Shown here: one piece after another, positions 1,703-39,358 of the stretch
How the letters are laid out: each line of letters opens with the position of its first letter
Numbering within the stretch: position 1 is the stretch's first letter
Source: Oceanobacillus oncorhynchi
Lineage (GTDB): Bacteria; Bacillota; Bacilli; Bacillales; Amphibacillaceae
Assembly: GCF_000821065.1 (NCBI RefSeq)
Contig: NZ_CDGG01000001.1
Span: forward strand, 2,418,001 to 2,482,000
Length of the DNA stretch: 64,000 nucleotides
Direction of reading: 5' to 3'
The notes under the pieces: model-generated
What the model was told of the DNA's origin: nothing
What the model saw: the letters and a program-made list of their open reading frames with translations, nothing else
The model's database searches: none
Program-made: the position numbers and the translations under genes

Positions 1703-2488
1703 TTATAAAATATTTGCCTGTCCTAATAGCCATAGAACAGCAATGATACCGACAATAATCCATAGCATATTTTTCCGGATAGCCTCTGGCATTTTCCGTT
1801 TTTTATTCCATCGATCCGGATCAAATTGCGGGCCGTCGTCATCATCTGCATACTTTCTTTTTCGCGGTCGGTTGCGCGACCAGGGGGAATAACTCTTTAC
1901 GCCGGCTAAGAGAAGCGGAGCGTAGGTAAAACCGCTGAAAAAACCAAATAAATGTCCCAATATGCTAATGCCGCTTCGTAAAAATGTCATGGCTAACGCA
2001 ATGGCTACAATGACACCAATGATTTGACTGCTGGATTGATCGATTAAATCTTTTCGGAAAAAGACCATATAAACATAGATTCCGAACAAACCGAAGATTG
2101 CTCCGGATGCGCCTAAATGAGCATAGGCAGGAGATTCAATAAAGTAAATAACAATATTTGCTGTCACAGCAGTGCCGATATAGGCTAAAATAAACTTGAA
2201 TTTACCGAGCATTTGTTCAAGTGCAGGACCGAACAGCACGAGGGAAAAGGAATTAAACAGCATGTGCATGGCCCCGGCATGAAGAAAAATAGGGGTGAAT
2301 AATCTCCACCATTCTCCTTCTCCAATCCAATAGTTGATTCCCACCCCATAATCTCTTATGTAAGTGCCAATTTGTAAATTTAAAAAATCAATAATAAACC
2401 ACAGAAATATATTGATCCCGACAATGATGGTTACCACGGGATATAATTCAAAGAATTCTCTGATGCTCCGTTCTGTCCTAATAAACAT
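1703..2488 (-). CDS. Rhomboid family intramembrane serine protease
   Basis: A 261-residue multi-pass membrane protein that probably cleaves transmembrane substrates within the bilayer. The catalytic serine is in GASG (Ser128) and the partner histidine in LGHLFGFF (His179). HAGAMHMLFN in the second hydrophobic block (about 70-79) is the typical rhomboid loop motif. About six hydrophobic segments precede a charged region (about 205-235), and a final hydrophobic stretch (about 241-259) makes the protein longer than minimal rhomboids. It is divergent from acpS, as ydcA is in B. subtilis. Its physiological substrate is unknown. Confidence 0.88.
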   Translation of the reverse strand: MFIRTERSIREFFELYPVVTIIVGINIFLWFIIDFLNLQIGTYIRDYGVGINYWIGEGEWWRLFTPIFLHAGAMHMLFNSFSLVLFGPALEQMLGKFKFILAYIGTAVTANIVIYFIESPAYAHLGASGAIFGLFGIYVYMVFFRKDLIDQSSSQIIGVIVAIALAMTFLRSGISILGHLFGFFSGFTYAPLLLAGVKSYSPWSRNRPRKRKYADDDDGPQFDPDRWNKKRKMPEAIRKNMLWIIVGIIAVLWLLGQANIL

Positions 2489-2619
2489 ATTGTGCCTCCC
2501 ATAGCCAATGCTTTTAAATGAAATAAGTTGTCCTATATACTATAATAATAAGAAATAATACAGATTATGACCATTATAAAGGTGTTACTATAAATAGAAA
2601 AATTTTAGGAGCAGTGACC

Positions 2620-2976
2620 ATGATACTTGGAATCGGTGTGGATATCGTTGAATTAGCAAGAATCAAACGATTACTTGAAAAAAATAATCGTTTTTTAGAA
2701 CGTGTATTAACCAGCACAGAGATGGAACAAGCAGGGCAGTTAGCTCTTCAGCGGCGCGTGGAGTATGCAGCAGGGCGTTTTGCTGCAAAGGAAGCTCTGG
2801 CTAAAGCAAATGGAACTGGGATTGGAAAACTGAGCTTTCAACAAATCGAAATTAGAAATCATGCCAATGGAGCGCCGGAAATGCAGGCAGAGGGGATGGA
2901 GGATATATCTATCCACGTGTCTATATCTCACAGCAGAGAGTATGCAGTAGCACAGGTTTTATTAGAAGAGAGATAG
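2620..2976 (+). CDS. acpS: Holo-[acyl-carrier-protein] synthase
   Basis: Transfers 4'-phosphopantetheine from CoA to a serine of acyl carrier protein, activating fatty-acid synthesis. The 118-residue protein begins [11 protein letters not shown]; Asp8 and Glu58 (in [10 protein letters not shown]) are the expected magnesium ligands, and it ends with [15 protein letters not shown] chose ATG 2620 over the upstream in-frame GTG at 2614 because AGGAG at 2607-2611 is correctly spaced only for 2620. It is followed by nnr, the conserved Bacillales order. Confidence 0.95.
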
Positions 2977-3059
2977 GATAAAGTAAAATGACAGCATCCT
3001 AAAAATGCATAATCGCATAGTTTGTCTCATATATTTTATTGCGGTAGGAGGGAACGAAT

Positions 3060-4577
3060 TTGTATATTGTTACCGCGGAAGAAATGTACAAGATTGACCG
3101 AGAAACTATTCAAACGATGGGCCTTGATGGAAAGATACTCATGGAGAATGCAGGGAGAGAAGCGAGCAGAGAAATAAAAAAGCGGATAACTAAAGAAGAT
3201 AAGACAGTTATTTTAATTGGCGGCGGAAATAATGGCGGAGACGGTTTTGTCATTGCCCGTGTGCTTGAAGAAGCAGGTTACGCTATCAAGGTGATCCAGG
3301 TTGCGCCGGACGAGAAAATTACAGGTGATGCAGCTCGCCATAAGAAGATTTATCGTCAATTTGGCGGCCAGGTGGCGGATTATAATGAAGGGACGGCAGA
3401 TACAGTTCTTTCAGAGGCTGATGTGATTATTGATGCGATGCTTGGAATCGGTGTGCGCGGCGGATTAAGAGGCGATATCTTAACTGTAACGAGACAGGTG
3501 AATAAACAAGATGCGTATGTGATTTCCATCGATATACCAACTGGGCTGCCGGCAGAAGAAGGCTTCGCGGATTTTCAGGCTATTGAAGCAGATGCAACGA
3601 TTATGATAGGAGCAGTAAAACAATCGGCTGTCTGTCAGCAAACGTCTTCCTATTATGGTGAATGGATTGTAGCGGATATTGGTTTTCCTGAAAAATTATT
3701 CCAAGCGCACACAAAAAAACGCTTGTGGACAACAGCAGATTTTCAGGAAGCTTTTCCAAAGCGGGGCGTCAATTCTCATAAAGGAGATCATGGAAAAGGG
3801 CTGATTATTGGTGGAAGTGAGCCGATGCCGGGATCCGTTCTGATGACAACAAAAGCAGCCTTGCGGACTGGAGCAGGGTTATTAACAACGGCTTCTGTGA
3901 AAAATGTAATTTCCATGATTGCTGGAAATAATCCGGAGGCTATGTATATTGGCGCATCCGAAACAGATGGCTGTATCACGGGAATCGATAACATTGACTT
4001 GTCTGGTTTTGATGCGATTGCTGTTGGCGTTGGTCTGGGCAGAAAAGAAGAAACGGCCAAAGGCATTTTTCCGGCATTGCTCAAGTATAAAGGACCAATC
4101 GTTATCGATGCAGATGGTCTTTTTCATCTGAGAGCCTATGCAGCAGATTTTAAGTTAAGACAGGCTCCGCTGATTTTAACACCTCACCCAGGTGAACTTG
4201 CTGCTTTAATGGATATATCTGTCTCGGACTTACTTATGGAGCCTTTCCGGCATAGTTCTGATTTTGCCAAGCGGTTGAACTGCTACCTTGTGTTAAAAGG
4301 AAAGCATACCATCATTACCGATCCGGATGGTAACCAGACCGTAGAATCAAGCGGGAACCCTGGACTTGCTAAAGGAGGCAGCGGGGATGTGCTGACCGGT
4401 ATGATTTTAGCAACGGTGATGCAGAGCAAATCGATTTTTGCAGGAATAAATAACGCTTGCTTCTTGCACGGAAAATCTGCAGACTTATTAGTCCAAGAAG
4501 AACACTCGGAACAGGATTTGCTGGCGGGGGATGTGATTCAAGGCATTCCAAAGGCAATCCGTACATTTTCTTCATAA
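3060..4577 (+). CDS. nnr: Bifunctional NAD(P)H-hydrate epimerase / ADP-dependent dehydratase
   Basis: Repairs NADHX/NADPHX, the hydrated damage forms of the nicotinamide cofactors. The 505-residue protein fuses an N-terminal YjeF-type epimerase (about 1-215, NNGGDGF at 57-63) to a C-terminal ribokinase-like dehydratase (about 225-500, with TPHPGEL and GGSGDVLTG). It starts with TTG at 3060 behind TAGGAGGG. B. subtilis has a stand-alone dehydratase; the fused form is common in other bacteria. No promoter is evident between acpS and this gene, so they may be co-transcribed. Confidence 0.94.
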   Translation: MYIVTAEEMYKIDRETIQTMGLDGKILMENAGREASREIKKRITKEDKTVILIGGGNNGGDGFVIARVLEEAGYAIKVIQVAPDEKITGDAARHKKIYRQFGGQVADYNEGTADTVLSEADVIIDAMLGIGVRGGLRGDILTVTRQVNKQDAYVISIDIPTGLPAEEGFADFQAIEADATIMIGAVKQSAVCQQTSSYYGEWIVADIGFPEKLFQAHTKKRLWTTADFQEAFPKRGVNSHKGDHGKGLIIGGSEPMPGSVLMTTKAALRTGAGLLTTASVKNVISMIAGNNPEAMYIGASETDGCITGIDNIDLSGFDAIAVGVGLGRKEETAKGIFPALLKYKGPIVIDADGLFHLRAYAADFKLRQAPLILTPHPGELAALMDISVSDLLMEPFRHSSDFAKRLNCYLVLKGKHTIITDPDGNQTVESSGNPGLAKGGSGDVLTGMILATVMQSKSIFAGINNACFLHGKSADLLVQEEHSEQDLLAGDVIQGIPKAIRTFSS

Positions 4578-33331: not shown

Positions 33332-33492
33332 AACACAACTTCATTCCGTGGGAGTTGTTTCCTTTCTCCCCCGGAATTAGCCTGAGTGCCTCAGGGGGGG
33401 AGTTAGCACCCGCTATCTCCTCTCTGAATAAATTTATTTTTACTCTCTATTTAGAGATGGAGTTTTACGGATGATTCTCCGGATAAATTTAA
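33331..33492 (+). repeat. Intergenic repeat, long form (copy A)
   Basis: Starts ACAACTTCATTCCGTGGGAG and ends GGAGTTTTACGGATGATTCTC...GATAAATT. Both ends and a central CTGAAYAAATTTATTTTTACT block are shared with 50546-50732. Shorter relatives are at 47091, 54674 (reverse) and 56677. Lies between larE and larC1. Confidence 0.7.
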
Positions 33493-33578
33493 ACATGATC
33501 TTTTACGGGAAAGCAGTTGAAAAAACTGCTTTTTCGCGTGAAAAGAGTATAAAGAAGATAAACAAAGGAGTAATTTTC

Positions 33579-34547
33579 ATGAAGATGTTATATTTGGATT
33601 GTTTTTCAGGAATAAGCGGTGATATGACAATAGGAGCGCTGCTTGACGCGGGAGGGAGTTTTTCTCATTTGCAAAACGAGTTGCAGAAGCTTCCTTTAGT
33701 CGATGAATACGAATTAAATGTTTATAAAGTAGTGAAGAATGGTATTACAAGCACAAAATTTGATGTTGTGCTGAAGAATGAGGAGCATGGACATTCCCGC
33801 CATGATCATTCTGAACAGGACGACCATGGACATTCCCGCCATGATCATTCTGAACAGGACGACCATGGACATTCCCGCCATGATCATTCTGAACAGGACG
33901 ACCATGAGCACGGGCATAGCCATAAGCATGTTCATGAGCATCATCACGGGCATAGCCACGACCATCATCATGAGCACCATCATGGTCACAGTCACGATGA
34001 GGGACATCATCACCATCACAATCATAGCCATCATCATCGTTCCTATCGTGATATTGTAAATATGATTCAAGAAGCAGATTTATCAGAAGACGTGAAAGAT
34101 ATGGCGTTGAAGATCTTTAAAAAAATTGGTGAAGCAGAAGGGCATATTCACGGTGTGCCGCTGGAGGATGTCCATTTTCATGAAGTAGGCGCTGTTGATT
34201 CGATTATTGATATTGTAGGGACAGCGATTTTATTGGAAGAGCTTGAGATTGATGAAATCAAGTCAGCAGCTGTTCCAACAGGATCTGGAAAAATTCATAT
34301 TGATCATGGCGTGTATCCTGTCCCGGCACCGGCTACGCTGGAGATTTTGCGTGGAGTACCGATTGCGCAAAGTGACTTGAAAGCAGAATTGACAACGCCG
34401 ACTGGGGCTGCTTTTGCTGCGGTGTTAGCGGAGGAGTTTTGTGATATGCCGTCTATGAAAGTGGTGAAAGTGGGATATGGTGCCGGTACGAAAACATTTC
34501 CGAATCACCCCAATGTACTCCGGGTTATCATTGGCGAAGAGGCATAA
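33579..34547 (+). CDS. larC1: LarC1, N-terminal part of the nickel insertase LarC
   Basis: Supplies nickel to the pincer cofactor, a CTP-dependent step in characterised LarC. 322 residues: LYLDCFSGISGDM at the start and VPTGSGKIHIDHGVYPVPAPATLE near 240-265 (core PVPAPATLE) are canonical. Residues 70-153 are an expanded histidine-rich insert, probably a nickel store. The protein ends at NVLRVIIGEEA, where full-length LarC would continue into the domain encoded at 35357. ATG 33579 follows AAAGGAG. Confidence 0.93.
   Translation: MKMLYLDCFSGISGDMTIGALLDAGGSFSHLQNELQKLPLVDEYELNVYKVVKNGITSTKFDVVLKNEEHGHSRHDHSEQDDHGHSRHDHSEQDDHGHSRHDHSEQDDHEHGHSHKHVHEHHHGHSHDHHHEHHHGHSHDEGHHHHHNHSHHHRSYRDIVNMIQEADLSEDVKDMALKIFKKIGEAEGHIHGVPLEDVHFHEVGAVDSIIDIVGTAILLEELEIDEIKSAAVPTGSGKIHIDHGVYPVPAPATLEILRGVPIAQSDLKAELTTPTGAAFAAVLAEEFCDMPSMKVVKVGYGAGTKTFPNHPNVLRVIIGEEA
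33786..33902 (+). repeat. Three perfect 39-bp tandem repeats inside larC1
   Basis: Three identical copies of a 39-bp unit encode 3 x HGHSRHDHSEQDD (residues 70-108). They precede an irregular histidine-rich stretch. The perfect DNA identity indicates recent expansion by slippage. Confidence 0.95.
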
Positions 34548-34580
34548 ACATTGAAAAAGTTTGGAGAGTAGGACAAGTAA

Positions 34581-35327
34581 ATGGAAGAAATTTTAAAGGA
34601 AGTCCAAAATGGAACATTAAGCATAGAGGACGCGAAAAAGAAGCTAGCGACTTATGAAGATTTAGGTTTTGCCAAAGTAGATCATCACAGGAAACAACGG
34701 CAGGGTTTTCCGGAAGTGATTTACGGAGAAGGAAAAACCGTGGAGCAAATCATAGCTATCCTGCAAGCAATCAAAGCGAAGCAGAATGATATTTTAATTA
34801 CTAGGATTTCACCGGATAAGGCAGATAAAATTTTAGGGGTTCATCCTGAATTGACGTACCATGATATGGCACAAATCCTATCCTTAAAGGTAGAAGAGAA
34901 AAGAGAAAAAAAAGAAGGATATATCGCTATTCTCTGTGCCGGAACCTCTGACTTGCGGATCGCTGAAGAAGCAGCCGTTACTGCTGAAGCATTGGGCAGT
35001 AATGTACGCCGATTTTATGATGTCGGAGTTGCTGGAATTCACCGGTTATTAGATCAGGCTCCAGCGATTCAGGACGCAACGGTTTCGGTCGTCATCGCAG
35101 GAATGGAAGGGGCGCTCCCAAGTGTGGTCGGCGGTCTTGTTTCGCATCCGGTCATTGCGGTGCCGACAAGTGTAGGCTATGGTGCGAACTTCCAAGGCCT
35201 GTCGGCATTACTGACAATGCTGAACTCCTGTGCGAGCGGAATCAGCGTGGTCAATATTGATAATGGCTTCGGCGGTGCATATAATGCCGTATTGATTGAC
35301 CGGCTGGCTCAAGGAAAAGAGGAGTAG
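34581..35327 (+). CDS. larB: LarB, carboxylase/hydrolase of nickel-pincer cofactor synthesis
   Basis: Carboxylates nicotinic acid adenine dinucleotide and cleaves its phosphoanhydride, the first step to the pincer. 248 residues with a PurE-like C-terminal half: AILCAGTSDLRIAEEA, GMEGALPSVVGGL, PVIAVPTSVGYG and NIDNGFGGA. The ATG at 34581 follows a GGAGAGTAGGA site. It lies between the two halves of larC. Confidence 0.95.
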   Translation: MEEILKEVQNGTLSIEDAKKKLATYEDLGFAKVDHHRKQRQGFPEVIYGEGKTVEQIIAILQAIKAKQNDILITRISPDKADKILGVHPELTYHDMAQILSLKVEEKREKKEGYIAILCAGTSDLRIAEEAAVTAEALGSNVRRFYDVGVAGIHRLLDQAPAIQDATVSVVIAGMEGALPSVVGGLVSHPVIAVPTSVGYGANFQGLSALLTMLNSCASGISVVNIDNGFGGAYNAVLIDRLAQGKEE

Positions 35328-35356
35328 CATTTCGCAATAAGAAGGGAGTTGTCTAG

Positions 35357-35821
35357 ATGGCACCAAAACATCCTCCGAATCAGGAACATATTGATGATAA
35401 TATGATAAAAGTGGAAGTCAATTTGGATGATATTTCAGGGGAATGGCTTGGATTTGTAATGGACCGCTTATTTGAAGCTGGGGCAAATGATGTATTTTAC
35501 ACCCCCATTTATATGAAAAAAAATCGGCCGGGGGTATTACTGCAATTGCTCTGTTCCAATCAAGCACTTCCTGAAATGAAGGAAATCCTGCTGCAGGAAA
35601 CTACGACGCTAGGCATCCGTTATTATCCGCTAACTGTCCACCGCATGGAAAGAAAGTTTATTCAAGTGGATACAGCATGGGGGCCAGTAACAGTGAAACA
35701 GGGGATCTCGAATGGAGAGGTCTTTCAAAGCTCACCAGAGTATGCAGACTGTAAAGCGATAGCTGAAGAACATGGAATTCCATTGAAACAAGTATATCAG
35801 TCAGTTTGGAAGCAATTATAA
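35357..35821 (+). CDS. larC2: LarC2, C-terminal domain of the nickel insertase LarC
   Basis: 154 residues covering the C-terminal CTP-hydrolysing/hexamerising part of LarC: VEVNLDDISGEWLGFVMDRLFEAGANDVF (core NLDDISGEW), TPIYMKKNRPGVLL and SPEYADCKAIAEEHG. It starts with its own ATG behind AAGGGAG. L. plantarum makes LarC2 by frameshifting from larC1; that is impossible here because larB separates the parts, so it must act as a separate chain. Followed by a bidirectional terminator ending the lar operon. Confidence 0.9.
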   Translation: MAPKHPPNQEHIDDNMIKVEVNLDDISGEWLGFVMDRLFEAGANDVFYTPIYMKKNRPGVLLQLLCSNQALPEMKEILLQETTTLGIRYYPLTVHRMERKFIQVDTAWGPVTVKQGISNGEVFQSSPEYADCKAIAEEHGIPLKQVYQSVWKQL

Positions 35822-35861
35822 AAAATACACAGACCAATTTGAATTGGTTTGTGTATTTTTT
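35821..35861. terminator. Bidirectional terminator of the lar operon
   Basis: AAAAATACACAGACCAATT and AATTGGTTTGTGTATTTTTT pair with one mismatch; T-runs on both strands. Confidence 0.88.
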
Positions 35862-35899
35862 ATTAAAATTTAGTGATTAAAAAGGGAAAGAACTCGCAT

Positions 35900-36532
35900 C
35901 TAATTTTTTTCCTTTCTGACAGGAAAATACTGATAGAATCGGTAAAGCTTTGATACGGCATACATGACCCATCTTGGAATCTTTTTTGGGAAATTCGTAC
36001 GCTGATAATATCGTGCATAAGCCCATTTTAAATCTTCCCATTGCGTACATTTTTTCTCCTGAGAAAAACGGGCTGTATCAATCAGACGCACAGCGCCTTC
36101 TTTGGTCAGGATAAGGTTATGCAGATGAATATCTGAAGGATTTAATCCCGCCTCTCTCGCAGCATTTAATCCATTATCCACATCCTTGATATGTTGAGAT
36201 GTCAGCGGAATACCTTCTGCCAGACATTCAAAAAATGTTTTGCCCTCAATAAAATCCATTACTAAATAGTTACTTCCTGCTTCATATATCGTTGGGTAGT
36301 AAGGACTGCCATGTAGCTTTTCGTAATTTAGCTTTTCTTCCATTGCTGTTTTTTCAAAAGACGGGTAGAAAATTTTAATCACTTTATGCTCATTTTTTAT
36401 TCTGAATACAGCGGCACTCCTCCCCGCCCCATAGAGCTCTAAGTCACTATGATGCCCGAGTATTTTTATACGTCTGTGTTTCTTCGTAAATAAAACGGTG
36501 GTTACATAGTGATTGTACATGGATTGTTTCAT
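35900..36532 (-). CDS. Small protein-kinase-fold protein
   Basis: A 210-residue kinase-like protein (Rio/APH-like, minimal). Glycine loop GAGRSAAVF at 35-43, ATP-binding Lys53 (VIKIFYP), hinge LVMDFIEGKTF, catalytic loop SDIHLHNLIL with Asp134 and Asn139, and metal-binding Asp152 (LIDTAR) in place of DFG. All key residues are present, so activity is plausible. ATG 36532 overlaps the stop of a 41-codon gene (TAATGA), meaning translational coupling, and both lie downstream of a manganese riboswitch. Substrate unknown. Confidence 0.8.
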   Translation of the reverse strand: MKQSMYNHYVTTVLFTKKHRRIKILGHHSDLELYGAGRSAAVFRIKNEHKVIKIFYPSFEKTAMEEKLNYEKLHGSPYYPTIYEAGSNYLVMDFIEGKTFFECLAEGIPLTSQHIKDVDNGLNAAREAGLNPSDIHLHNLILTKEGAVRLIDTARFSQEKKCTQWEDLKWAYARYYQRTNFPKKIPRWVMYAVSKLYRFYQYFPVRKEKN

Positions 36533-36657
36533 TATTTTTTAAAACTGCCTTTTCTTTTGGCTAATTCCTTTTTGATCACAGGCAAGGCATGTTTTTGCGC
36601 TTGTTTTATTCCTTCTTTTACCATTTTAGACTTGAGAAGCTTCGTAAGTTTAGACAT
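36532..36657 (-). CDS. 41-residue basic protein under a Mn riboswitch
   Basis: Begins MSKLTKLLKSKMVKEG and ends KELAKRKGSFKK; about one third lysine/arginine, predicted helical, without cysteine or histidine clusters (one His). ATG 36657 is preceded by an ideal AAGGAGG. The stop overlaps the kinase-like gene start. I do not recognise the family. The ribosome-binding site, overlap and riboswitch upstream support it as a real small gene; a leader peptide or a remnant of a lost gene are alternatives. Confidence 0.65.
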   Translation of the reverse strand: MSKLTKLLKSKMVKEGIKQAQKHALPVIKKELAKRKGSFKK

Positions 36658-36692
36658 TTCTTTTCCTCCTTGGCTTATGTGCGGCAAAAGCT

Positions 36693-36738
36693 AATAAAAA
36701 AGAGACCTTTGCCCACATATTTTTTGGACAAAGGTCTC
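36693..36738 (-). terminator. Intrinsic terminator of the Mn riboswitch expression platform
   Basis: On the minus strand GAGACCTTTG pairs perfectly with CAAAGGTCTC (10 bp) and TTTTTTATT follows. The 5' arm also belongs to the aptamer P1 stem, so aptamer and terminator exclude each other. Confidence 0.88.
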
Positions 36739-36826
36739 GCAAGCAACGAAATGAAACGGTTGCCAGCAGTGCCGAGGATTTCTCCTGTAATGACGACAGC
36801 TGCTATTATGCTACTCCCCTTTGGGA
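36700..36826 (-). promoter_or_regulatory. yybP-ykoY manganese riboswitch
   Basis: On the minus strand the hallmark AAAGGGGAGTAGC (about 36811-36824) is followed by GTCGTCATTACAG, CTGGCAACCGTTTCATT and the closing GAGACCTTTG. AAAGG and CCTTT form P1. This is the yybP-ykoY aptamer that senses Mn2+. The terminator arrangement predicts an ON switch: Mn2+ stabilises P1 and prevents the terminator. Usual targets are MntP, TerC, UPF0016 or P-type ATPases; here the transcript enters a 41-codon gene and a kinase-like gene. Confidence 0.87.
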
Positions 36827-36845
36827 TTAATTTGAATGTACATTT

Positions 36846-36874
36846 ATTATAGAGGGCTTGTTTCGTAAGCGCAA
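36846..36874 (-). promoter_or_regulatory. Promoter of the Mn riboswitch transcript
   Basis: On the minus strand TTGCGC (36869-36874), 17-nt spacer, TATAAT (36846-36851). The start point would fall about 12 nt before the aptamer. Confidence 0.75.
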
Positions 36875-37049: not shown

Positions 37050-37232
37050 GTGAAAAACCGTTGGGTCAGTGGACTTTTATATGCTTTAACGGGCTCCGTC
37101 ATCATGTTTATGGTCAGTATCCTTCTTGGAGGAGAGCCTTATTGGAATGGAATAATTGGTTTTCTGATGGGAGGGTTTACTTATGGGGCATTTTTTCGTC
37201 CAGTGATGGAAAAGAAAATGAAATCAAAATAA
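37050..37232 (+). CDS. Small two-helix membrane protein, possibly sigma-B dependent
   Basis: A 60-residue protein: MKNRWVSGLLYALTGSVIMFM opens helix 1 (about 6-27), helix 2 is about 34-50, and the tail is MEKKMKSK, predicting both termini inside. GTG 37050 has GGAG 9 nt upstream. No family recognised. A candidate sigma-B promoter upstream suggests a stress-induced small membrane protein. Confidence 0.65.
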   Translation: MKNRWVSGLLYALTGSVIMFMVSILLGGEPYWNGIIGFLMGGFTYGAFFRPVMEKKMKSK

Positions 37233-37423: not shown

Positions 37424-39358
37424 ATGCAGCTTAATGCAGCGCAAAAATTAATTCAAGATCATTTGCTGTCAGGAGAGATGAAGCCCGGAGAAGAGATTGG
37501 TTTAAAAATTGACCAGACGTTGACACAGGACGCGACAGGTACCATGGTGATGCTGGAATTGGAAGCGATGGGCATTGATAAAGTGAAGACAGAGGCATCG
37601 GCACAGTACGTGGACCATAACCTGATTCAGGAAGATTTTCGGAATGCAGATGACCATCTATTTTTACGGAGTGCGGCACAGAAATTCGGCATTTATTACA
37701 GCAGGCCTGGAAACGGTGTCAGTCATCCTGTCCATATGCAGCAGCTGGCACGCCCCGGGAAAACCTTATTAGGTTCAGACAGTCATACATGTGCCAATGG
37801 ATGTATGGGCATGCTGGCTATGGGAGCGGGCGGAATTGACGTCACGATGGCAATGGCCGGTGAACCTTATTATGTGAAAATGCCGCGGGTTATGGGAATT
37901 GAATTAACAGGAAAATTGCCTGATTGGGTCAGCGCCAAGGACGTTATTTTAGAAATGCTGCGCCGCCATGGCGTAAAAGGCGGTGTCGGAAAAATCCTTG
38001 AATATTATGGACCAGGTGTGAAGGAATTATCTGCTATGGATCGGCATGTGATTGCCAATATGGGAGCAGAGCTTGGAGCGACCGCCACAGTATTTCCGTC
38101 AGATAAAGAAATTAAACATTTTCTAAAAACACAAGGGCGCGAAGACGAATGGATTGAATTAAAAGCAGATGATGGAGCGGATTACGATGAACATGAAGAA
38201 ATTGATTTATCTGCGTTGGAACCTTTAATTGCAAAACCGTCCAGTCCGGGGAATGTAGTGCCTGTTACGGAAGTTTCCGGAGAAGACATCTATCAGTCTT
38301 ACATCGGTTCTTCTGCTAACCCGGGATACCGCGATTTTGCGATTGCCAGTGAAATTGTGAAGGGAAAGCAAATCGCAAACGGTACTTCTCTGGATATTAA
38401 TCCAACTTCCCGTCAACTGCTGGAGCAGCTTGTTGAAAATGGGCATATTGCGAATCTGCTGGCAGCCGGTGCCCGTATGCATCAGGCAGGATGCAACGGC
38501 TGTATTGGTATGGGGCAGGCTCCGGCTACGGGTAAGAATAGTTTACGGACGACACCCCGAAATTTCCCGGGACGGTCCGGGACAAGAGAAGACAGTGTGT
38601 TCCTATGCAGTCCGGAAACAGCTGCTGCTTCTGTATTAACGGGAGTTATTACAGACCCAAGAACATTGGATATGTCTTATCCGAAAATAAAAGAACCGAC
38701 TACTTTTTCTACAAAGGGTATGCTGGAAGTGCCGCCGAAGGATAATAGTCAAATTGATTTAGAAAAAGGGCCAAATATCACGACTATCCCAGATTTTGAT
38801 CCGATTGAGGATAACTTTGATGTTCCTATATTACTGAAAATGAATGATAACATCTCAACAGATGAAATTCTTGCCGGCGGTTCACGTGTCTTGCCATACC
38901 GCAGTAATATTCAAAAAATCAGTACCTTTGCATTTGAAATCATTGATGATGATTATTACGAAATGGCAATGAAACAACGTGATGACGGCGGTCATGTGGT
39001 TGTGGCGGGCTTTAATTACGGACAAGGTTCGAGCCGGGAGCATGCGGCGCTCGCACCGCGGTATCTGGGATTAAAAGTCGTGCTAGTGAAGGATTTTGCC
39101 CGTATTCATCTGCAGAACTTGATTAATTTCGGTATTTTACCATTAACGTTTGTCAATGAGGAAGACTATGATTTGGTTCGGCAGGAGGATGTGCTCGAAT
39201 TTCGCCAAATCCATCAAACGATTCAAAATCAGCACACCTTTGATATTAAGCTGAAAGGGACAGAACGTACGATTGCTGTGCAGCATGACCTTACTAAACG
39301 TCATCTTGAAATTCTGCTGGCCGGCGGAATTATTAATTGGATTAAAGAAAAACAATAG
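37424..39358 (+). CDS. Aconitate hydratase (short, 644-residue type)
   Basis: Converts citrate to isocitrate with a [4Fe-4S] cluster. 644 residues, the short bacterial/archaeal-like class rather than the ~900-residue AcnA of B. subtilis. The HVDHNL-like DHNLIQ motif, GSDSHTCANGCMGMLAMGAGG (cysteine in SHTC), and GCNGCIGMG (CxxC cluster ligands) are present, with a C-terminal swivel domain containing YGQGSSREHAA. ATG 37424 follows AAGGAGG. The family also includes 2,3-dimethylmalate and related dehydratases, so substrate is probable not proven. A 55-codon gene follows by 14 nt. Confidence 0.88.
   Translation: MQLNAAQKLIQDHLLSGEMKPGEEIGLKIDQTLTQDATGTMVMLELEAMGIDKVKTEASAQYVDHNLIQEDFRNADDHLFLRSAAQKFGIYYSRPGNGVSHPVHMQQLARPGKTLLGSDSHTCANGCMGMLAMGAGGIDVTMAMAGEPYYVKMPRVMGIELTGKLPDWVSAKDVILEMLRRHGVKGGVGKILEYYGPGVKELSAMDRHVIANMGAELGATATVFPSDKEIKHFLKTQGREDEWIELKADDGADYDEHEEIDLSALEPLIAKPSSPGNVVPVTEVSGEDIYQSYIGSSANPGYRDFAIASEIVKGKQIANGTSLDINPTSRQLLEQLVENGHIANLLAAGARMHQAGCNGCIGMGQAPATGKNSLRTTPRNFPGRSGTREDSVFLCSPETAAASVLTGVITDPRTLDMSYPKIKEPTTFSTKGMLEVPPKDNSQIDLEKGPNITTIPDFDPIEDNFDVPILLKMNDNISTDEILAGGSRVLPYRSNIQKISTFAFEIIDDDYYEMAMKQRDDGGHVVVAGFNYGQGSSREHAALAPRYLGLKVVLVKDFARIHLQNLINFGILPLTFVNEEDYDLVRQEDVLEFRQIHQTIQNQHTFDIKLKGTERTIAVQHDLTKRHLEILLAGGIINWIKEKQ

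Follow-up and report, generated by a model that had tools for sequence, protein, structure and literature searches.

In the accessible parts of the literature, the outputs named for Mn2+ riboswitches are metal transporters and TerC proteins. Why would such a riboswitch stand in front of genes for a kinase-fold protein and a short basic one? This arrangement occurs in the window, the whole 64,000-nucleotide stretch of Oceanobacillus oncorhynchi DNA that was analysed, which belongs to a genome of 4.6 Mb. Its minus strand carries, from 36874 to 35900, a riboswitch operon made up of a promoter, a yybP-ykoY aptamer, a terminator, a 41-amino-acid open reading frame (ORF) and a kinase-fold ORF, and our analysis confirms this layout. 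An earlier note on this DNA had remarked that neither product is a transporter, which holds for this operon. We favour, with a probability of roughly 0.8, the reading that the leader is a transcriptional ON switch and that the operon is induced by Mn2+, adding a kinase arm to the Mn-overload response of the Bacillales.

The promoter (36846-36874, minus strand) consists of a -35 element TTGCGC at 36874-36869, a 17-nt spacer and a -10 element TATAAT at 36851-36846, all checked by letter. Judged by eye, TTGC and TATAAT are preserved in nine of nine close relatives (L003-L011). The promoter is missing from the list returned by a consensus scan because its -35 element equals TTGACA at just three of six positions; that scan gave five promoter-like sites against a shuffle mean of 5.0, that is, no excess. 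At the other end, a terminator-like hairpin (35815-35862, minus strand; -19.2 kcal/mol, z -9.24) lies 3′ of the kinase gene, before the convergent lar genes.

On that side of the operon, LarC is apparently split (33471-35821, plus strand) into ORFs at 33471-34547 and, for the LarC2 part, 35357-35821 (NF052512 match); we take the first to be LarC1 and an ORF between the two LarC parts to be LarB-like. The LarC1-like ORF contains a long histidine-rich repeat at 33714-34070 made of HGHSRHDHSEQDD units. On the promoter side, a 60-amino-acid membrane-like ORF (37050-37232, plus strand; weak TIGR04086 match below cut-off) has the riboswitch operon on one side and, on the other, a divergent gene at 37424-39358, which is presumably aconitase-like.

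The distal gene of the operon (35900-36532, minus strand) encodes a 210-amino-acid minimal protein-kinase-fold protein, and its ATG overlaps the stop codon of the small ORF by 1 nt (TAATG). The AlphaFold2 model has a mean pLDDT of 94.1 and matches PknB and RIO2 in Foldseek (E 4.9e-7; TM-score by query 0.45 and 0.55), with TM-scores that are modest overall (0.42-0.56 among the matches listed). K53, E66, D134, N139 and D152 are invariant across 62 kinase sequences; following the family pattern, we take them to be the ATP-site Lys, the αC Glu, the catalytic Asp, the Asn and the metal-binding Asp. The confident model, its structural matches and the intact catalytic residues bear out the kinase fold that had been proposed for this gene. 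The Pfam Pkinase match does not reach the gathering score (18.1 of 31.7 bits, E 0.0019), and we therefore class the product as a kinase-fold protein and not as a classical Hanks kinase. The closest named match, in a comparison that may omit the window's own record, is from Oceanobacillus sp. CFH 90083 (77%). The kinase is minimal and probably active.

The proximal gene (36532-36657, minus strand) encodes a basic protein of 41 amino acids and net charge +12, preceded by AGGAGG at 36670-36665, 7 bases before the ATG. No Pfam or NCBIfam family matches it at E values up to 1. A single-sequence search of 397 genomes from the order finds homologues in 20, each with the aptamer core upstream, and a 22-row profile matches in 32 of 299 genomes, a sample that overlaps the first. 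Among the 30 of these 32 profile matches that were examined, the core lies within 400 nt in 28, and the two exceptions (L296 and L297) are the weakest of the 30. Homologues of the protein thus stand almost only behind a yybP-ykoY-type riboswitch. They are also under purifying selection: the window and L123 share 41 of 41 residues at a pS of 0.51, and pooled pN/pS over 12 sequences is 0.245, as raw, uncorrected proportions with synonymous sites near saturation in the farther pairs. The homologues and this selection uphold the earlier view that the small ORF is a real gene. G16, A20, P26, K34 and R35 do not vary among 22 small-protein sequences, and the protein is probably helical. A 37-amino-acid relative (L052) has a weak HEPN match below the cut-off. 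In Oceanobacillus jeddahense (L007, L126) the small ORF continues in frame into the kinase as one 247-amino-acid ORF, which may reflect a frameshift, a sequence error or a true fusion and is excluded from the evidence; in a model of this fusion the small-protein part is a single long helix, and the model supports no claim of docking.

We consider it unlikely, though worth weighing, that the 210-amino-acid protein is no protein-signalling enzyme but either a pseudokinase or a kinase of small molecules, Mn-induced for housekeeping, and that the small ORF serves mainly as a translation-coupling leader. Such a protein would fit the model, which has just two helices past the metal-binding Asp and so lacks both the activation segment and the large C-lobe that are usual in kinases, and it would fit the weak similarity to families of LPS heptose, KDO and thiamine kinases that accompanies the similarity to protein kinases. 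The invariance of the five residues K53, E66, D134, N139 and D152 in 62 sequences nevertheless argues against this alternative. The small protein is missing from many riboswitch–kinase loci, so the kinase does not require it everywhere, which would suit a mere leader; its residue-level conservation, as in the complete identity to L123, speaks against one, because translation alone would not require it.

In the kinase operon, which we favour as Mn2+-induced, the aptamer together with its switch helix P1.1 spans 36729-36823 on the minus strand. P1.1 pairs CAAAGG (36823-36818) with CCTTTG (36734-36729), as the letters confirm. RF00080 matches at 36741-36831 (minus strand) with 25.0 bits against a gathering score of 45, at E 5.1e-5 in a scan of a 501-base stretch and E 1.1e-4 when the whole genome is scanned. 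The sole other RF00080 match in the genome, upstream of a TerC gene, is likewise below the cut-off (25.7 bits). A default Rfam scan of the window is blind to the aptamer because its score lies under the gathering cut-off, and a strict-filter scan of relatives found neither of the genome's own two riboswitch copies. We take both misses as limits of sensitivity, since relaxed RF00080 scans and our model R1 recover the copies. For R1, 65 leaders were extracted by motif and 36 were aligned and used for training, namely the window, 34 leaders from named kinase loci and one TerC-linked copy; it matches the window aptamer, itself one of its training rows, at E 2.8e-24.

The aligned leaders support the predicted structure. 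In the four aptamer helices, 98.4% of 684 cells are paired, a value reached in none of 500 shuffles, compared with 28-58% in slid-alignment controls. Nine of 19 pairs are changed on both sides, two of them within P1.1, and no shuffle of 500 reaches nine. L1 GGGGAGUAGC and CGUCA occur in 36 of 36 aligned rows, which were chosen by motif with one mismatch per block tolerated; both loop blocks are matched exactly in 64 of the 65 extracted leaders. A36791, which by pattern maps to the Mn-sensing adenosine, is invariant in all 36 of these motif-selected rows. Thermodynamic folding is less striking for the aptamer than for the terminator, with z -2.13 for the aptamer part alone (6 of 200 shuffles as good) and z -1.67 with P1.1 included (8 of 200). 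The yybP-ykoY assignment of the earlier note is supported by the covarying leaders and the conserved L1 and L3 loops, and the RF00080 covariance model does match the minus-strand leader, though under the Rfam cut-off (25 of 45 bits).

Next comes an intrinsic terminator (36695-36738, minus strand) with arms at 36738-36726 and 36714-36702 followed by a T run. The 3′ strand of P1.1 is part of the first of these arms, so that the two helices are mutually exclusive. The hairpin has a predicted energy of -23.1 kcal/mol (z -5.84) and the full leader folds with z -5.54, in each case with none of 200 shuffles as good. Across the aligned leaders 86.3% of terminator cells are paired, scoring above all shuffles; covariation is weak because just one of 13 pairs is doubly changed, no more than in shuffles. 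A terminator scan missed this hairpin because its loop is too long for that scan. In folding, P1.1 forms when the terminator 3′ arm is left out, and the full leader replaces it by the terminator. The shared strand, the pair counts and the folding agree with the switch proposed earlier. In the excerpts of work on the Lactococcus lactis riboswitch, the switch helix is A3-G7/C96-U100, A41 coordinates Mn2+, and the P1.1 strands AAAGG/CCUUU are stabilised by Mn2+ against a terminator (PMC9190785). By pattern, that switch helix corresponds to CAAAGG/CCUUUG of our leader, and A41 to A36791. Our leader has the layout that such excerpts give for ON switches of the yybP-ykoY class.

What else stands behind this type of riboswitch? 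The best 150 R1 matches include 124 kinase-free loci, from which we drew 40, most of them among the highest-ranked. These carry a TerC-related ORF in 26 cases (5 weak), an FbpB-like ORF in ten and a Spo0M-like ORF in nine, so that exporters and TerC-like proteins, the outputs that the earlier note had given for the class, are too narrow a set. The small basic, FbpB-, Spo0M-, TerC-like and antiporter labels used here are putative, assigned by eye or by phmmer to in-study sequences; Pfam was searched with four window proteins and seven relatives, of which one was FbpB-like, two were DUF6376, three were small proteins and one was a kinase. ORFs that we take to be a Kef-like antiporter, a cation exchanger, DedA-like and HtpX-like also stand behind this riboswitch type (L233, L236, L241, L245 and L255). 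The window's own genome has one FbpB gene (PF13040 above cut-off; G000:C1:4420738-4420851, L298), which is away from both riboswitch sites.

These outputs bear on the ligand. That another divalent metal would be the main in vivo ligand of this aptamer is improbable: the TerC-related ORFs downstream of most of the 40 other copies and the invariance of the Mn2+-coordinating adenosine equivalent both point to Mn2+, against which may be set that the ligand of this copy is assigned from sequence and that a streptococcal member binds Ca2+ more tightly than Mn2+, according to excerpts of PMC9495176.

The pairing of riboswitch and kinase is not peculiar to the window. A scan of named genomes gave 260 confirmed kinase loci, of which the 80 best were retained; the core motif lies no more than 2 kb upstream of the kinase in 62 of these 80 and is missing from 18. 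Given how the sample was formed, this proportion describes the nearest kinases. A count over the 676 kb of the 80 loci gives 64 motifs on the kinase strand and three on the opposite strand, and 60 of the 64 fall at locus positions 2001-4000, just ahead of the usual kinase position. The conserved synteny raised in the earlier note is thus found. In 150 evenly drawn genomes, a sample that overlaps an earlier set of relatives drawn by kinship, at least 26 of 54 close kinases (53 genomes) and none of 32 distant ones have one of the best 150 R1 matches on their own strand, no more than 2.5 kb upstream. The division between close and distant kinases is our own choice, set at a gap between E 6.6e-59 and 7e-45; since only the best 150 R1 matches were counted, 26 of 54 should be read as a minimum and the share of 26 in 150 as biased upward. 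These 26 include a broken copy in genome G138 (G138:C1:2109306-2109791), a second kinase copy with three stops that still has a riboswitch match upstream. In the kinship-drawn set, the motif is upstream of 17 of 35 close kinases, and the one match among 35 distant kinases is sited inside the kinase ORF. Within the genus, nine of 28 genomes have the riboswitch, small ORF and kinase together.

As this pairing recurs in many relatives, high manganese is probably the condition under which the kinase is produced. The kinase is also found outside riboswitch control, because the motif is missing from 18 of the 80 loci, from up to 28 of the 54 close kinases and, within the genus, from three of 12 (L016, L026 and L030). 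Nor was the motif seen at the kinase loci of two Bacillus species, B. atrophaeus and B. sonorensis, which have presumably ruvAB-like ORFs nearby.

The first gene behind the riboswitch varies. Judged by eye, around 20 of the 62 motif-bearing loci have a member of the small-protein family, which at one locus is fused in frame to the kinase. An FbpB-like ORF is present at about 13 loci, and at three the only additional gene is a DUF6376-like lipoprotein. At about 26 loci nothing else that we recognise as a gene separates the riboswitch from the kinase. The first-gene ORF of L015 belongs to the FbpB family, with PF13040 above the cut-off. At L163 (Mesobacillus foraminis) the riboswitch is followed by an array of FbpB-like, Spo0M-like, presumably DUF1232-like, TerC-like and kinase ORFs. 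We rejected the DUF6376 lipoprotein as a dedicated Mn gene, the motif being present in the 1.5 kb covered upstream at just four of 27 PF19903 loci.

In a quick tree of 62 kinases, gene-order labels are clustered, with 15 changes against a shuffled mean of 35.8. Absence of the riboswitch accounts for eight changes on this tree, of which the well-supported branches require two, and repeated gain or loss of the riboswitch at kinase loci is likely. It is very improbable that the operon is a deletion scar, in which the loss of an intervening exporter gene left the kinase behind the riboswitch as a bystander, as the earlier note had considered: a TerC-like ORF lies between the two at one of the 62 motif-bearing loci (L163, of a distant genus), yet riboswitch, small ORF and kinase occur with no exporter between them in 14 of 14 rows of the window's own clade, and the loci with no further recognised gene also argue against such a loss.

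The favoured reading, a Mn2+-induced ON switch, would work as follows; the class suggests the metal to which it responds, and both the architecture and the L. lactis riboswitch suggest the direction of the response. At low cytosolic Mn2+, the nascent leader would form the terminator (36738-36702) and transcription would end before the genes. At high concentrations, Mn2+ would bind the docked L1-L3 loops and stabilise P1.1, which would withhold the terminator 5′ arm and let RNA polymerase read through. The 41-amino-acid protein would then be made from its strong ribosome-binding site, and the kinase would be translated probably via translational coupling at TAATG. The operon would form a Mn2+-induced branch alongside the TerC gene behind the genome's other Mn riboswitch. 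The kinase would phosphorylate one or more targets, adjusting physiology to Mn excess, and may use Mn2+ as its own cofactor; the small basic protein may act beside it, possibly in an FbpB-like manner.

We tentatively suggest a wider Mn2+-overload signalling branch in the Bacillales, a possibility on which we would place less than even odds. In it, riboswitch-induced minimal kinases and interchangeable small basic proteins (the 36-43 amino acid family or FbpB relatives), sometimes with TerC, would reset metal use post-translationally and perhaps post-transcriptionally, as a Mn counterpart of the iron-sparing response. If this is true, bacteria answer Mn excess by protein phosphorylation besides export, and a family of uncharacterised small kinases, which may include B. 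subtilis YrzF, gains a physiological context. A family of basic proteins of 36-43 amino acids that has no Pfam model closely tracks the riboswitch. In the accessible parts of the open-licence literature, which excludes two founding papers, we found no account of the kinase or the 41-amino-acid protein under this riboswitch; within that literature the sensor class and its control of TerC are already known, and the conserved kinase output is apparently new.

Known members of the yybP-ykoY class (RF00080; L. lactis yoaB, B. subtilis meeY/ykoY) share with our leader L1 GGGGAGUAGC, L3 CGUCANNAC with the Mn-sensing adenosine, and a P1.1 of AAAGG/CCUUU that competes with a terminator. TerC under yybP-ykoY control is known from the accessible parts of PMC10550928 and PMC10898510. 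Unlike such exporter or TerC copies, the present one is followed by the small basic protein and then the kinase, and it differs from RF00080 itself in being a compact 91-nt match to a 177-position model, below the gathering score. MntS of Escherichia coli, with which the earlier note had compared the small protein, has about 42 amino acids and is made at low Mn; the likeness lies in size and Mn context alone, and the control that we propose for the 41-amino-acid protein would be the opposite. FbpB (PF13040) is also small and basic and takes part in the iron-sparing response; excerpts of PMC8464778 only postulate that it acts as an RNA chaperone. Its family has a member in the same first-gene slot at L015, whereas the 41-amino-acid protein has no PF13040 match and its own conserved residues (G16, A20, P26, K34 and R35). 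The 210-amino-acid protein shares its predicted fold and catalytic residues with RIO-like and PknB-like (Hanks-type) kinases. B. subtilis has four Hanks-type kinases according to the available part of PMC12747378, and YrzF, a possible relative, is listed there among them. The window's protein differs from Hanks-type kinases in its length of 210 amino acids, in having no activation segment, and in that NPSDIH replaces HRD and D-V/T-A replaces DFG.
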